The translations under genes were made by a program, and so were the position numbers. This document shows, piece by piece, positions 23,060 through 49,343 of a DNA stretch of 64,000 nucleotides (within the stretch, counting starts at the first letter, position 1; each line of letters begins with the position of its first letter). The stretch spans positions 1,922,001-1,986,000 of the forward strand of contig NC_089448.1 in NCBI RefSeq assembly GCF_026210795.1, written 5' to 3'. Origin of the DNA: Rhizophagus irregularis. Lineage: Eukaryota; Glomeromycota; Glomeromycetes; Glomerales; Glomeraceae. Below the pieces are notes generated by a model. That model was not told where the DNA came from and ran no database searches. It saw nothing but the letters and a program-made list of their open reading frames with translations.

Positions 23060-24235
23060 AAGAAATATAAAAGATTTATGGTCAAAATAAAATCTATTTG
23101 ATGAAGGATAAAAAGAATTTGTATTTAAAAATGTTTAGATATATTGTAGTATTCGAAATTATTTAAAAGATAATTTTTCAAATTGGACATCCGAAAATGA
23201 TGATCTTGATAATTTAACACAAAAATATCAAATGGAATTCACTTGAACCGGAAGAAAATAATTGAATGGATTTCATTTAATAATTTATTATTTAACGAAA
23301 GGGGAATTTTTGGAAATTTATTCAGCAAGATTAGGATTGATGATTATTACAATGAATGGAATTCTAAAAAAAGACAAATAAAAAAAATTTGGAAAGTAAT
23401 AAGTAATGCTTAAAAGATTAGTAAATCATAATCGGTTTGGAGAGGTATGTAATCTAAATAACTTAGTAGTCGAGTTACTTTTTATCTAATTAATATTTAC
23501 ACCCATTTTTTTTTACAGTCAAATCATATTAGCAGTAATATACAGATATTGTCCCCTATTATGGAATGAAGATTACATGCTTGTAATGATCGTAATGACG
23601 TAATGTACGTAAATTTAAAAGAATATTTACTAATAAATCATAATCAACTTATATGAAAAGAAAGAATCCAAATTATTATTTTTGATATAATTTTTGCACT
23701 CTCAAAATTCATGATGAAAATTCAATTCAATTTACATTCTAGAAATATATCATTTATATAACTTGATCCGAGATTCTTGGATTTTGTGGTCTTTTAAATA
23801 AAAATCATCAAAAAGCGATATGGAAATCTTCATTATATAGCACCTACTCCTAAATCTGAAATTTATAGTATAGCAATGATTATGTGGAAAATTTCCTTTG
23901 GTCAACCACCATTTATTGATCATGAACATGATCAATTACTTTGCAATGAATACAATTAATGGTATAAGGCTAATAATAGTACCAGTACCAGAAACTCCTT
24001 TAAAGCATAACATTGCTGGGATGCTGATCCATCGAAAAGCCTGGTATTTATTTATACACTCAAGAAACATAACGAAAGAAATTAACCTATCATAGCAAAA
24101 TGGAGAAGTAAAAATAAATAGGACAAATGATTTATTAGAATCAAATTTCACTATCGGCAAAAGTAAAATTCATAATTCTGAAAATTTTTCTGAACCAAGA
24201 AAATGTAACAGAAGGTTAAAGGTATTATTTATATA
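23060..24235 (+). pseudogene. Decayed zinc-ribbon TKL kinase copy
   Basis: It aligns by eye along its length with the intact gene at 25201-27486. The coding-like run [17 protein letters not shown] appears at about 23150-23205, remains of the glycine-loop region at about 23300-23340, an intron-like gap ending in ACAG before 23520, then QLLHSRNI-like catalytic loop debris near 23725, LGFCG-like debris near 23770, a SEIYSIAMIMWKISFGQPPF segment near 23855, and an NSENFSEPR-like tail segment near 24175. Many stops and indels interrupt all parts. No single frame exceeds about 75 codons. This is a long-dead paralogue and the oldest of the three local copies. Confidence 0.8.
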
Positions 24236-25200
24236 TTATCTAGTTAATTATAAAATTTATTTACAAAATAGATCATTAATTATACCTTTATTTTAACAAA
24301 AGAACTTGAAGGTATATATAAATTGTTTATAATTATCCATTTAATATTTACGTTATAATTTTTATTTATATTTAAAGTAATGAGTTATTAATTGACTTTT
24401 TTGACAATTTTGAGAGAAACAGCAATATAACATAACTTTATTTTGCATAATGGAAATTTGTCTGAGTCTCCATACAAATAATTTGAATTGTGTAATATGA
24501 AAATCGTTGCGCCTGATCTATTCCTTATTTATTTGTTATTATTACACTAAATTGTTAGGTACCACACATAATGTAATTTATGATGTAATAATTTCTTTCC
24601 ATTTTTCCATTACCCATATATTTTTATTCAAACCTATTTGCGATCATTAAAACTTTTTAAAAAAAAAGTAATTATAATTCTACAGAAATTCTTCTCTTTA
24701 TACGACTTTTTTTAGTAGAAATAATAAGTTGGATGATTTCTTAATCTTTCATGTTCATTATTCACCATGTTGTTTATTTAAAATAAATTCAATTGAAAAT
24801 AACCAAAGAAAATTGACCTTTCATTAATCATGTTTATATTGATTTTTAAGTAATATTTAAAAAATTACTACAAATTAATAGTCTATTGAATAACGATCAT
24901 TGATTTTACCAAATTATTTGAATATTAATCAATATAATCAAGGAATATTATTTATTCATTAAGTATGACAATCAAATTTGTTAAATTGTATTCGCTGAAA
25001 AAATGAAAAAAAAAAATAAAATAAAATTATAAAGTACGATAATATTTTTCTTTTTTTGGAAATAAGGCGTAAAATACTTCACAAAATTTATGTGGGCACA
25101 ACATGAAGTTTGATCAACAATTTGCATTTACTAATTTATCTCGGAGTAACCGAACTTGAAACATAATTCTTTCTATTCCTTTTAATTTATTAATTACATT
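24236..25200. other. Intergenic upstream of intact kinase
   Basis: No gene. AT-rich DNA with A/T tracts; no clear TATA element was found within 100 bp of the ATG at 25201. Confidence 0.4.
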
Positions 25201-27486
25201 ATGTCCACTCTTCGATATGAATTAATTTATGCGACAGTTAATAGAGCAACAACATTAACAGATACTAATATTTACAATGATATACACAAACAATTTGAAT
25301 TTCAAAAACAAACAGTCCTTGCTGATAAAATTCTTACCAATGATGAAAAAACTGAAGCGATAAGAGATTTAACTAAAAATTATGATCGAGATAAAGTTAT
25401 ATTTAATAATGGTACAAGAAGAATTTGTGAAAATTGTAACCAAGAATGTTTAGCCACATTATATTGTGAATATTGTGTCCGAAATTATTTAAAAGAAAAT
25501 TTTTCAAATTGGACATCCGGAAATGATGATATTGATAATTTAATACAGAAATGTCAATTGGAAACAACTAGACCAAATGTAATAGTTGAATGGATACCAT
25601 ATAGTAATTTAGAAAATATTAAATATTTAACAAAAGGTGGATTCTCAGAAATTTATACAGCAGATTGGATTAATGGAGAGTATGATGAATGGGATTCTGA
25701 AAAAAAACAATTAAAAAGAATTGAAAGACCTGGAATACAAAACATAAGGATGAAAGTAGTACTTAAAACGTTAGAAAATGTCGAAAGTGCAAATAAAAGT
25801 TGGTTTGAAGAGGTTTGTATTATTGTATTCTATATTTATAAAATTGTTGTAATTTTTTGTATTAGCACTAGTATTTTTACAAATTATTATATTTTAGGCT
25901 AAATCACATTTAACTATAAGTAATAAATGGGCGGATGTTGTTCGATGTTTTGGTTTAACACAAAATCCATCAAATGGAAATTATATGCTTGCAATGATGA
26001 AATTTGATATAGATTTAAGAACATATTTACAACAAAATCATAAACAACTTACATGGAAAAAGAGAATTAATATTGCTTATGAAATAATTCGTGCACTTTA
26101 TTTCATTCATTATGTGAAAGCAATTCATAGAGATTTACATTCTGGAAATATATTATACTCACAATTTAATGATCGTTGGTGTATCAGTGATCTTGGATTT
26201 TGTGGACCTGCTGATAAATCTTCAACAAGTATATATGGAAATCTTCCTTACATAGCACCCGAAGTTATTGTTGGAAGAGAATATACTTTTGCATCTGATA
26301 TTTATAGTATTGCAATTCTTATGTGGGAAATTTCATCTGGACAAACACTATTTATAAATTATGAACATGAAAATGATATTGTAATGAATATTATTAACGG
26401 TATAAGACCAAAAATTGTGCCAGGAACTCCATTAGAATATAAAAATTTAATGAAAGAATGTTGGGATGCTGATCCATTAAAAAGACCTGACGCTTATACA
26501 CTTGGGGAAAGAATGAAAAGATTTAATTTAGATTATCAAAATATGACAGATGAATCATTCAAATCAGAAATAGTAGATAATTTAGAAATGAATAAAGCAG
26601 AAGAAAATTATACGAGTAGCAGATTATTCACAAGTAAAATTCACAACTTTGAAAATCTACCTGAACCAAGAAATGCAACAGAAGGTATAAGTGTATAATA
26701 TTTTATTAATGAATGTATTTATTTATTATTAATGTTATCTTTTTATTATAATAGAAGAACAAGGTATAACCGTATAAATAATAATTTCTACCATTTTTTG
26801 ATGACTATAATAATTTAGTTTTTAAAATAAATACTTTATTTTACTACTAATAGGGTTTCATAGTAAATTGTATGATTTTAACATTCCAAACAACAGTAAG
26901 TAATTATTAATATTACATCGTTGAATTATTACATAATGATGTTTAATAATTGATATTTATTTTAGTTAATGATTTTAATAAATCAAATAAGCGAGATAGC
27001 AAATCATCTAAAGTAATTACTATTTTTAGAGGTAATATATTTTAATTATTGCCAAATCGAGATTGATTTATATATTAAATCTGTATCTTAATTTTTAGAT
27101 AGTAATAAAAAATTATCTAAATTATTTAAAAAGTTGCAAATAAAGTCAAAAAGTAAGTAAATTACTAACGAATAAAATTACTATATTAATTTCATTTATT
27201 TAACGCGACTTTTATTTAAAAATTAGATGATGAAAAGGAAATAACTCAACAACATGTCGATGGTAGGTGAAAATTTTACGTAATAGCCAACAATTTTTAT
27301 ACTATTTTAAGTATGTTTATTTTCTTATAGATGATGACGATGTATATAATAATCCAAATCTTCATTCGAAAGAACAGGATGAACTTGAAATTCCTGATGG
27401 TAGGTTCTTAAGTAAATAAGATTTCTTTTTAAAGCAAATAATTAATTTATAATTTGTTATTTTTTTTATCTTTAGATGGATTTTGA
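25201..27486 (+). CDS. Zinc-ribbon TKL protein kinase with microexon tail
   Basis: Nine exons join in frame to 561 residues: 25201-25812, 25898-26684, 26755-26763, 26854-26895, 26966-27031, 27099-27152, 27227-27262, 27331-27399, 27476-27486. The head (about residues 75-120) has a Cys4 zinc-ribbon-like module, CENC...CEYC, followed by the NWTSGNDDIDNLIQ phrase. The kinase lies at about residues 140-420: TKGGFSEIY glycine loop, lysine in VVLKTL, HRDLHSGNIL catalytic loop, DLG in place of DFG, YIAPEV (APE present), and CWDADPLKRP. After the kinase comes the family motif SRLFTSKIHNFENLPEP, then a polar acidic tail encoded by tiny phase-1 exons. It is probably a cytosolic signalling kinase; substrates are unknown. 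Flanking copies on both sides are broken. Exons 3-9 rest on splice consensus, frame and conservation in the tandem copy. Confidence 0.88.
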
Positions 27487-29617: not shown

Positions 29618-31914
29618 ATGCCTGTTATACGAGTTTAGCTAATTAATGTGGCAATCAATAGAGCGATTGCATTAATAGATTATAATATTCATAATGATAT
29701 AGACAAACAATATGAATTTATACGACAAACGGTTCTTGCTGATAAATCTTTTACAAATGATGAAAAGACTTATGCAATAAGAAGAATAAATAAAATTATT
29801 GATAAAAATAAAGTTTTAAATATTGGGGGAACAAGAAGAATTTGTGAAAATTGTAACCAAGAATGTTTAGCTATATCATATTGTGAATATTGTGTTCGAA
29901 ATTATTTAAAATTAAATTTTTTAAATTGGACATCTGGAAATAATGATATTGGTAATTTAATACAAAAATGTCAAATGGAAACAATTTTACCAGAAAAAAT
30001 AGTTGAGTGGGTTCAATATGATAATTTGAAAAATATTAAATATCTAACAAAAAGGTGGATTCTCGGAAATTTATACAGCAGTTTGGATTGATGGAAGGTA
30101 TTATGAATGGGATACTATGAAGCAGCAATTAACAAGATTTGGAAATCAAGGAGTAATACTTAAAAGATTAGAAAATTTTGAAAGTGCAGATCAAAGTTGG
30201 TTTGAAGAGGTTTGTAACCTAATGAATCAGTAATTTATAATTATCTTATTAGAAATAGATTAACTAATATTTTAGGCAAAATCACATTTTACTATAAGCA
30301 ATAAACATCCAAATATTGTCAAATGTTATGGATTAACACAGGATCCATCAAATGGAAATTACATGCTTGTAATGAATATAATGGATTTAAATTTAAGAGA
30401 ATATTTACAGCAAAACTATAATCAACTTACGTGGGAAAGAAAATTTCAATTTGCTTATAACATAATTACTTCACTCAAGCAGATTCATAATGAAAATGCA
30501 ATCCATAGAGATTTACATTCTGGTAATATATTATTTAAACAAGTCAATCAAAGATTTGCTATTGGTGATCTTGGATTTTGTGGTCCTGCGGACAAATCGT
30601 CAAAAAGTATATATGGAAATCTTCCTTATATAGCACCTGAGGTTATTGCTGGAAAAGAATTTACTTTTTAATCCGATATTTACAGTATTGCAATGCTTAT
30701 GTGGGAAATTTCATCTGGAAAACCACCTTTTAATAATTATGAGCATGATTATTATCTTGCAATGAATATAGTTAATGGTATAAGACCAAGAATAGTATCA
30801 GGAACTCCTCTAAAATATGAGAGTTTAATGAAACAATGTTGGGATGCTGATCCATCAAAAAGACCTGATATTAAAACACTTCAGAAAAAAATAAATGAAG
30901 TTTATAAAAGATACCTGGATATGCCAAATGAATTAGAAGAAAGTAACAATTTAGAAATAAATAAAACTAATAGCTCAGAAGAAGCAAAAGAAACAAGCAG
31001 CACACTATTTACAAGTAGCAAACTTCATAATTTTGAAAATTTTCCTGAGCCAAGAAATGCAACAGAAGGTATATTATTACATATTGATTATTAATTCAAA
31101 TTACTAATAATTAATATAATATATTTTATTTTTATTTTATTTAAAAACAACAGAACAACAAGAAGGTATAAATTGAACAATTTTTTATACCAATCAATTT
31201 ACAGGTTGTTGACTATTTTATAAATTTTTAGCATTTCATAGCAAATCTTATGATAATTTTTATATCCCTGATAGCAGTAAGTATTTTATTAAATTCGTGA
31301 TGAATTTCTTATAATTGAATCCAATGCTTTTTAATTGATTTTAATTTATTTAGTTGAAGATTTTGGCAAGTCTAGTGATCAGGAGAATAACAGCACATCA
31401 AATAAAATCAGTATTTTTAAAGGTAATTATTAGTATTTTTTTGCATATTTAAAATAACTATGTAAAATGAATGTTAAATACATATCTTAAAATTTTGTAG
31501 TTAATAATGCTGATAGTCAATTATACGAAAAATTTGAGAAACTACAAGTAAAAATGGTGAGTAAAATAATCAAATATAATGTACTAAATTGATCAAAGGC
31601 ATTTTGTTAAATATGATTTATTTATTTAGATTTTCAAGAAGATAATAATTATAACAATGAAACAATGAAACATCATTCTTATATTGATGGTATGTGAAGT
31701 TTAGCATTTGTATAACTGGAGTAATATTACTGACAATAATAATTTTATGTTCTTATTTTACAGATGAAGTACATAATAATCCAAATCTTCATTTGGAAGA
31801 ACAAAATGAATTAGAAATTCCTGATGGTAAAGAAAATTTTTCTAAATGATGATGATATTTTAGATACTTAAATCTAATTTGTTAAATTTTTTCAATTTTT
31901 TTTTAGATATTTAG
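29618..31914 (+). pseudogene. Tandem kinase copy with three disabling changes
   Basis: A close paralogue of the 25201 gene, about 4.42 kb downstream of it, with the same exon plan, including the 9-nt microexon and the phase-1 tail exons that end at the stop at 31912-31914. Three lesions are visible. Codon 7 is TAG (29636-29638), where the intact copy has GAA. An extra A in the run at 30049-30053 shifts frame at the glycine loop. A TAA at 30669-30671 replaces a GCA codon in the APE-SDIYS region. The zinc ribbon, HRDLHSGNIL and the DLG motif are otherwise preserved, and the splice sites are intact, so decay is recent. Automated gene callers could hide the lesions with short introns or a later start (GTG/ATG near 29648). 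It may still be transcribed. Confidence 0.8.
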
Positions 31915-47432: not shown

Positions 47433-49343
47433 TCATTCAATATTATATTCATTGTCTTGACAAATTTCATTTAGTTCTATAAAAAAAAGTTTAAATTATA
47501 TATTATGCAACAAAAATAAGTAAATTAGATATAGAATATCAATAAAATTACAAATAAAAATAACTTACCTAATTCACTTAATTGAACATCTAAGCATTCT
47601 GAAACTGTATATTATGTATTTATAGTATATTTAAATGTTAACAAAATTAAATAAAATAATTATAATAATAAAGGGAATACTTACTTGGATTTGCCGATGT
47701 TGATTGAGTAGTATAACTAGTGTCTATTAAAAAATAAAAATAACATCAATAATGTAAAATGGATTATATGATAAAACAAAATCAAATTAAATTACCTGAA
47801 CTGAATTGAAAAGATGATAAATCTAAAGAATTTACTGGTTTTGAAAGATTTTTGAAATTTAAAAGTCTACTAGTATAAATTGCTTGTGGATGTATTTTGA
47901 AGCTTTTGGGTTTATCTTCACTTGACCTGTTTTTGAATTTTTCTTTTCTAATTTTATCACATTCTTCTATTTGAAAATAAATTTCAGTTTCGCTATTATA
48001 TTTTTCCCCATCCCATCTTGTTAATAGTTGATACAATTCTTTAGTAATTGGTCTATTTTTTATTTCAGGATCCCAACATTTTATTATCAAATCTGCAAGT
48101 AACTTTGGTATGTCTTTAGAAATTGTTGGTCTAAGTCCTTTACATATTTTAATAGCTAAAAATTCATCATGAGGAATATCATTAAAAGGAATTTCTTCAG
48201 AAAGAAATTCATTCATTATTATTCCAAATGAGTAAATATCTGCTGCTTTTGTATATTGTTGTCCACGTAAAACTTCTGGTGCCATATATGGTAATACTCC
48301 ATAAATTCCTTCTTCTTTAACTGTTTGCTTTATATTTGTTGGTTGACACATTCCTAAATCACTTATATATGAAAATCTTTTAGATATTAATATATTACCT
48401 GAATGAAAATCTTTGTGAACTTTTTCAGCATTATGAATATCTAAAAGTCCTCTTGCAATTTGTTGTAATTGATAAATTTTTAAATTATAATTTATATAAT
48501 TTTTAGATCTATTTAAATAATTTCTCAAATTTCCATCATCACAATATTCTATAACCATCATATACTCTTTATTATTTGGATCTTGAGTAATTCCAAAACA
48601 TTGAACAATATCTACAAGATGAATCTGAAGATGAGATTTAATCTAATGATCATCAAAAAGGAAAAGTTTTATTAGTAAATAAATGCAAATAACAAACTTT
48701 ATATATAAGACAAAATAAGTTTAAATTACCTCATTTAAAAAATCTGAACATACATCAGATGAATTATTATTTAAACTTTTTAATGCATATTCACCAAAAT
48801 TATTTCTATACCATTTTTGATTTATAATATCCCAGAATTCAATATGTCCTTCAGGCCATTCAGCTGAATAAATCTTACCAAAACCACCTTCTGCAATATA
48901 AGTGATATTTTGAAATTTTTCAAAAGGTATCCATTCAAGATATTTATTATAATGTACAGCATTAAGTTGTGATTGCTGTATAAATTCATCAATATCCTTA
49001 TTTTCACTGGTCCAATTTTTAAAGTTATCTTTAAATCTTTTAGCATTACAAGGTTGACACCATTTGTTTCCTGTGCCAGGTTCTTTACATTCTCCACATA
49101 TTCCATATGCTTGTTTTCTTTTTTCTAAATCTCCTATATAAACTACTCTTTCATCTACATTTTCTGATTCAATAGTTGAATCAATAGTAGGAATAGTAAC
49201 ATGGAACTTTTAATAGACAAAAAATTATTAATATTTTTAACTACAAAAATTCAATAAAAAAATTATAATTATTAAAAATATTAAATTACCAAATATTTAC
49301 TTAAATCAGTATTCTCCCATAAATTTTTTGGGGTTTCATCCAT
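47433..49343 (-). CDS. Zinc-ribbon TKL kinase with small phase-1 tail exons
   Basis: Six exons (49343-49290, 49206-48730, 48642-47796, 47724-47695, 47604-47569, 47476-47433) join in frame to 495 residues. After a short leader, a Cys4 module CGEC...CQPC and the NWTSENKDIDEFIQ phrase are followed by the kinase (about residues 105-385). It has the AEGGFGKIY glycine loop, a lysine in YALKSL, the HKDFHSGNIL catalytic loop (HRD is HKD), DLG in place of DFG, PYMAPEV, AADIYSFGIIM and CWDPEIKNRP. The motif AIYTSRLLNFKNL follows, then a tail encoded by 30- and 36-nt phase-1 exons. The domain order and tail plan match the 25201 kinase, but the sequence is clearly diverged, so this is an older paralogue in opposite orientation. 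It is a predicted cytosolic signalling kinase; HKD makes catalysis slightly unusual but not excluded. Target unknown. Confidence 0.9.

Follow-up and report, generated by a model that had tools for sequence, protein, structure and literature searches.

Symmetric phase-1 exons in the C-terminal tails of an expanded kinase family in Rhizophagus irregularis

Do fungi with short introns skip cassette exons when the architecture of a gene allows it, or do they diversify such genes through exon turnover in DNA alone? The question is raised by a kinase gene of Rhizophagus irregularis that ends in a run of very small exons. The gene lies in a stretch of 64,000 nucleotides, called the window here (contig NC_089448.1 of assembly GCF_026210795.1, positions 1,922,001-1,986,000; G000:C20:1922001-1986000 in our coordinates), of a 146.7-Mb genome in 32 contigs. 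All exons of the gene are on the plus strand and are numbered by window position. Exon 1 (25201-25812) encodes the N-terminal part, with a Cys-rich, zinc-ribbon-like stretch and the start of the kinase domain, and is followed by a phase-0 intron, while exon 2 (25898-26684) encodes the remainder of the domain and ends in phase 1. The spliced frame runs for 561 residues to a stop, and residues 141-407 match the PF07714 (PK_Tyr_Ser-Thr) profile at 120.1 bits against a gathering cut-off of 23.1. The tail begins with exon 3, a 9-nt microexon (26755-26763), followed by exon 4 of 42 nt (26854-26895); exon 5 of 66 nt (26966-27031), the length of which differs among paralogs; exon 6 of 54 nt (27099-27152), which has two sequence types among paralogs; and exon 7 of 36 nt (27227-27262), which measures 33-36 or 54-60 nt in close paralogs and has a tandem duplicate in one subclass. 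Exon 8 (69 nt, 27331-27399) bears the conserved peptide NNPNLHSxEQDELEIPD, and terminal exon 9 (27476-27486) has 11 nt including the stop. The six internal tail exons are all of phase 1-1, and the seven tail introns, of 67-90 nt and with GT..AG borders, are all of phase 1. A sequence-only reading had proposed this series of lengths and phases after the kinase exon, and our gene model agrees with it.

The same reading held that any subset of the internal tail exons could be skipped without loss of frame. All 64 subsets are indeed in frame, and they encode 64 distinct proteins; together with the exon losses and gains among paralogs described below, this backs the description of the tail as a modular set of symmetric exons. 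If one of the seven tail introns is retained, whichever it is, an in-frame stop follows within seven codons, and when the first of them (from 26685) is read through, the fifth codon is already an in-frame stop. Phase 1 does not extend to every intron of these genes, as the phase-0 intron within the kinase domain (25813-25897, 85 nt) makes clear. We also observed that this intron contains no in-frame stop, so that its retention would read through and shift the frame.

Two further kinase copies in the window had been described as having tails of this kind, and each description stands in part. The broken tandem copy (30276-31914, plus strand), which comprises a kinase exon and a tail, keeps some of the exon series, with tail exons of 12, 45, 69, 56, 60, 63 and 8 nt, but its 56-nt exon 6 is not a multiple of three and breaks the frame; a premature stop lies at 30669-30671. 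The distant kinase (47433-49343) had been credited with phase-1 tail exons of 30 and 36 nt. Its tail (47433-47723, minus strand) has internal exons of 39 nt (47723-47685) and 36 nt (47604-47569) and a 44-nt terminal exon, so the phase and the 36-nt length are right and the 30-nt length is not. All three tail introns of this gene are of phase 1, and its two upstream introns are of phase 0. By eye, a third remnant of a kinase of the same family, badly decayed, occupies 23080-24290 and ends near the recognisable start of the tail boundary.

A genome search with the kinase exon scored at least 145 places, counting the window gene, from 3787 first-look candidates. The 3' ends of 100 of the 144 other places were fetched, with one degenerate copy carrying four stops deliberately left out. 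All comparisons are between paralogs inside one genome, which share ancestry and are not independent draws. An alignment of 63 rows holds the window gene, 61 close paralogs with 79-91% identity in the kinase exon, and the broken copy. When the exons of the window gene were projected onto the other 62 copies, 323 of 372 tail exons had AG..GT or AG..GC borders; the filter on borders and lengths excluded 49 of these exons and 59 of 434 introns. Lengths divisible by three were found in 311 of the 323 filtered exons, against 121 of 375 filtered introns. Where an exon differed in length from its counterpart in the window gene, the difference was a multiple of three in 124 of 136 cases (100 of 318 for introns), or in 63 of 75 once the microexon is set aside, its 61 cases counting as a single change in the window copy. 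All 62 other aligned copies have a microexon of 12 nt, so the 9-nt length reported for it earlier is correct for the window copy and peculiar to it. Its AG..GT or AG..GC borders are kept in 61 of those 62 copies, and the genome at large, behind kinase exons or elsewhere, has 133 exact copies of it flanked by TAG and GTA, against none for the reversed control.

A splice-chain finder that weighs splice sites, codon usage and intron length, with no phase prior, was run on 102 tails and gave 101 models (the remaining locus, L047, had no anchor), of which 19 miss the strict C-terminal pattern. Internal tail exons are of phase 1-1 in 457 of 459 cases in the 82 models that reach the conserved C-terminus, and in 530 of 537 over all 101. 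Sixty shuffled tails yielded 59 models, of which 45 consist of one exon only; the 21 internal exons in this set comprised 13 of phase 0, six of phase 1 and two of phase 2. With phase 1 in only six of 21, a phase-1 bias of the finder is ruled out. Because the splice-site weights come from close paralogs, distant loci (66-76% identity in the kinase exon) provide the fairer test, and those whose models run to the end have the same predicted tail plan. On these alignments and models, the phase and length rule of the tail is not chance. As a separate matter, the predicted tails of two distant paralogs (L078 and L092) close with another C-terminal peptide in place of the usual exons 8-9.

We estimated divergence and NG86 dN/dS from 59 of the 63 rows, with pooled pairs that are not independent of one another. 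The tail as a whole has a pooled dN/dS of 0.51 and the final 33 kinase-exon codons one of 0.52; taken singly, exons 4 to 8 have values of 0.40, 0.60, 0.85, 0.35 and 0.37, respectively. Intron cores diverge by 0.11-0.22 and tail exons by 0.01-0.16, each exon being less diverged than its adjoining introns. Among the seven tail introns, divergence is lowest in the first and second, which flank the microexon. Exons 5-7 diverge by 0.149-0.158, which exceeds the values for the sequence downstream of the stop (0.124) and for introns 1 and 2 (0.112 and 0.132), and divergence in these middle exons is nearly flat across codon positions. Judged by these substitution patterns, constraint on the middle exons is weak, and exons 3, 4 and 8 are held tighter than the middle of the tail.

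Paralogs also differ in which exons they possess. In the models of one subclass of 12 close paralogs, exon 7 is preceded by an intron of 202-212 nt, and in the nine of these loci that could be parsed, that intron contains a second copy of the exon (7a), 83-92% identical to the copy in use (7b). None of the nine has an AG at the expected acceptor of 7a. An internal AG a few codons in might serve instead, so constant skipping of 7a is not certain. The same subclass has a donor within exon 5, giving an exon of 30-36 nt that is still of phase 1. Elsewhere, exon 5 has been deleted together with its intron (L018), and exon 8 is shorter with the frame kept (L033). The finder models omit exon 6 in five loci on contig C10 (L086, L088, L089, L093 and L097) and exon 7 in L063-L065, L071 and L077; these losses are provisional, because the finder can miss a weak exon. 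The genomic copies thus show a tail that evolves through gain and loss of exons at the DNA level. Larger rearrangements were noted as well: in L001, the region aligned to exons 4-5 is by eye their reverse complement, and an inversion of the tail seems likely, while the tails of L015, L020 and L046 seem to be split by insertions, perhaps mobile elements, with exon 8 or the microexon further downstream.

The gains include tandem arrays of exons 7 and 8, which we located through clustered matches in peptide searches with the two exons. Adjacent homologous in-frame exons within one gene are present in two relatives on C10 and absent from the window gene. In the larger (L103; array at C10:3927313-3930032), ten copies of exon 7 alternate with nine of exon 8, all 54-69 nt long and of phase 1. 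Between the open kinase frames upstream (3925239 and 3925928) and the array lie exons 3, 4 and 5, so that the predicted tail has 23 exons, including nine full exon 7+8 pairs, with every internal exon of phase 1. The introns measure 76-85 nt within the array and 277 nt before it; at its end, the tenth exon 7 copy is truncated, at 54 nt, and the terminal exon, at 143 nt, does not resemble its usual counterpart. Over nine copies each, mean identity is 86% for exon 7, 91% for exon 8 and 85% for the introns, and dN/dS between units is 0.39 for exon 7 and 0.29 for exon 8. Exon 7 copies are hardly more alike than the array introns. Several exon 8 copies in this gene have two acceptors three bases apart (TAGCAG), of which the finder chose the first in two; such pairs could produce variants differing by one residue. 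The second array gene (C10:4360028-4361657) has six exon-7-like and five exon 8 copies, with some exons predicted short and uncertain. A fragment on another contig (L102, G000:C13:803793-804460) looks like a copy of the first C10 array with fewer units, because its units match units 4, 5 and 7 of that array at 96-98% identity; one of its exon 7 copies has a stop. At L101 (G000:C1:645500-653500), a kinase gene has its 3' end in four copies that recur every 1016 nt; the copies are 91-100% identical, and copies 2-4 lie downstream of the first stop. From this identity, the fourfold repeat looks recent.

Exons also appear to have been exchanged between paralogs. Among 47 close models with seven tail exons, every pairing of exon 6 type (A or B) with exon 7 length (short or long) is represented: 20 models are A-short, 7 A-long, 6 B-short and 1 B-long. 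The remaining models are the 12 of the duplicated subclass, which are B-long, and one that is untyped. Trees of the two tail halves, computed on 51 of the 63 alignment rows (12 dropped), reject each other with logL differences of 325 and 578. This incongruence is not clean proof of recombination, because control splits into odd and even columns, each with half the columns, are likewise rejected, with differences of 63-104. Taken with the combinations of exon types, recombination between the tails of paralogs is likely.

We think it probable that the tail is a mostly constitutive, translated module of frame-neutral exons that diversifies by exon turnover in DNA. Since every internal exon is of phase 1-1, exons can be lost, lengthened, duplicated or exchanged without damage to the frame. 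Each gene would then for the most part produce a single full-length tail, its introns of about 75 nt being recognised through ordinary intron definition, and the diversity of cassettes would arise mainly between genes and over evolutionary time. The run of phase-1 introns may persist because symmetric exons alone survive such turnover. The product would be a putative polar, flexible docking segment whose ends (exons 3-4 and 8) are conserved and whose middle is variable.

The sequence-only reading instead took the exon set to be a device for alternative splicing, in which regulated skipping within each gene would generate many tail variants as its main role. The 64 distinct in-frame products fit that idea, and schistosome micro-exon genes offer a precedent (PMC4350168 and PMC8293314), although exon turnover predicts the same symmetry equally well. 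The microexon, at 9-12 nt, is the best single candidate for skipping, because the donors of the introns around it (26685-26853 region) are conserved in the consensus-poor form GTATAA (48 of 60 and 45 of 61 close loci) and these introns are the least diverged of the tail. Introns of about 200 nt must, moreover, be spliced in exon-loss paralogs if those genes are expressed, and the introns of that size in the duplicated subclass suggest that splicing past one exon is mechanically possible in expressed genes. The remainder of the tail speaks against regulated skipping: donors of introns 3, 5 and 7 are mostly GTAAGT, those of introns 3-7 match it at a mean of 2.0-4.0 of four positions, at least as well as the kinase intron does (GTTTGT or GTTTGC in five genes), the introns are only about 75 nt long, and no exon is as diverged as its flanking introns. 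One survey, covering 23 fungi, attributes 3% of alternative events to skipped exons and 61% to retained introns and argues for intron definition (PMC3925392). We therefore regard skipping as an unlikely main role for the tail. A reading that joins both levels, in which exon pairs are amplified and traded among well over 100 paralogs in DNA and then skipped combinatorially in RNA to give a large repertoire of kinase tails, strikes us as more doubtful again. If it were true, the microexon and the exon 7-8 arrays would be the foremost skipped exons, and the family would be a fungal counterpart of the schistosome micro-exon genes.

A plainer account would have the tail constitutively spliced, its uniform phase an ancestral chance kept through gene duplication and its modularity without consequence. 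The paralogs do share an ancestor, and short introns whose retention brings an early stop suit intron definition. Exon duplication, arrays, loss and boundary shifts by multiples of three have nevertheless occurred several times, and the distant kinase, a separate gene, obeys the phase-1 tail rule too; we consider this account improbable, somewhat behind skipping as a main role. That the gene simply stops in the intron at 26685, the remainder being decaying DNA, is suggested by the stop at the fifth codon of that intron and is scarcely credible: conservation of frame and splice sites among the paralogs all but rules out an end there, dN/dS is below 1, and the exact, bordered microexon is abundant in the genome and lacking from its control. 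Introner-like spread of the introns was also considered and rejected. The tail introns of the window gene are 42-56% identical to one another, compared with 27-49% after shuffling, and in our judgement this likeness, although above the shuffled controls, is no more than AT-rich sequence and shared splice signals would give.

The small symmetric exons make up the rapidly changing portion of a kinase family with strong expansion in an arbuscular mycorrhizal fungus, and the tandem exon arrays provide a ready copy-number series of one tail. For R. irregularis, an assembly of strain DAOM197198 has been published along with Nanopore long-read and short-read RNA (PMC10234402), and because such RNA exists for this fungus, the kinase tails make the question of cassette skipping directly testable. 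Expansion of the tyrosine-kinase-type (PF07714) family in this species has been reported (PMC6123716 and PMC8647823); those accounts concern the same Pfam domain and a similar genome-wide expansion, and their passages on the family contain neither the tail exon plan nor the arrays. More generally, we found no description of either in these kinases in the open-licence literature searched.

Runs of symmetric small exons are best known in animals. Within R. irregularis, the SP7-like effectors are secreted proteins with a variable number of hydrophilic repeats, treated in a paper on effects on plant splicing (PMC11333574). Like the kinase tails they are repeat-variable proteins, and no repeat-per-exon plan appears for them in the sections of that paper describing the repeats. 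Animal genes with mutually exclusive splicing resemble the kinases in having tandem duplicate exons in one gene (PMC9741552), but the kinase-tail duplicates are added in frame. The schistosome micro-exon gene is the closest precedent for the gene plan known to us. In those genes, small symmetric exons of at most 36 bp account for the bulk of the coding sequence, and both differential splicing and exon duplication have been reported (PMC4350168 and PMC8293314). What the two share is a series of very small symmetric exons whose removal leaves the frame intact, as holds here for every subset. The difference is that the small exons of the kinase family (9-81 nt) occur in the tail only, and just two of the six internal tail exons in the window gene are of 36 nt or less. 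With its small exons confined to the tail, the window kinase is not itself a micro-exon gene.
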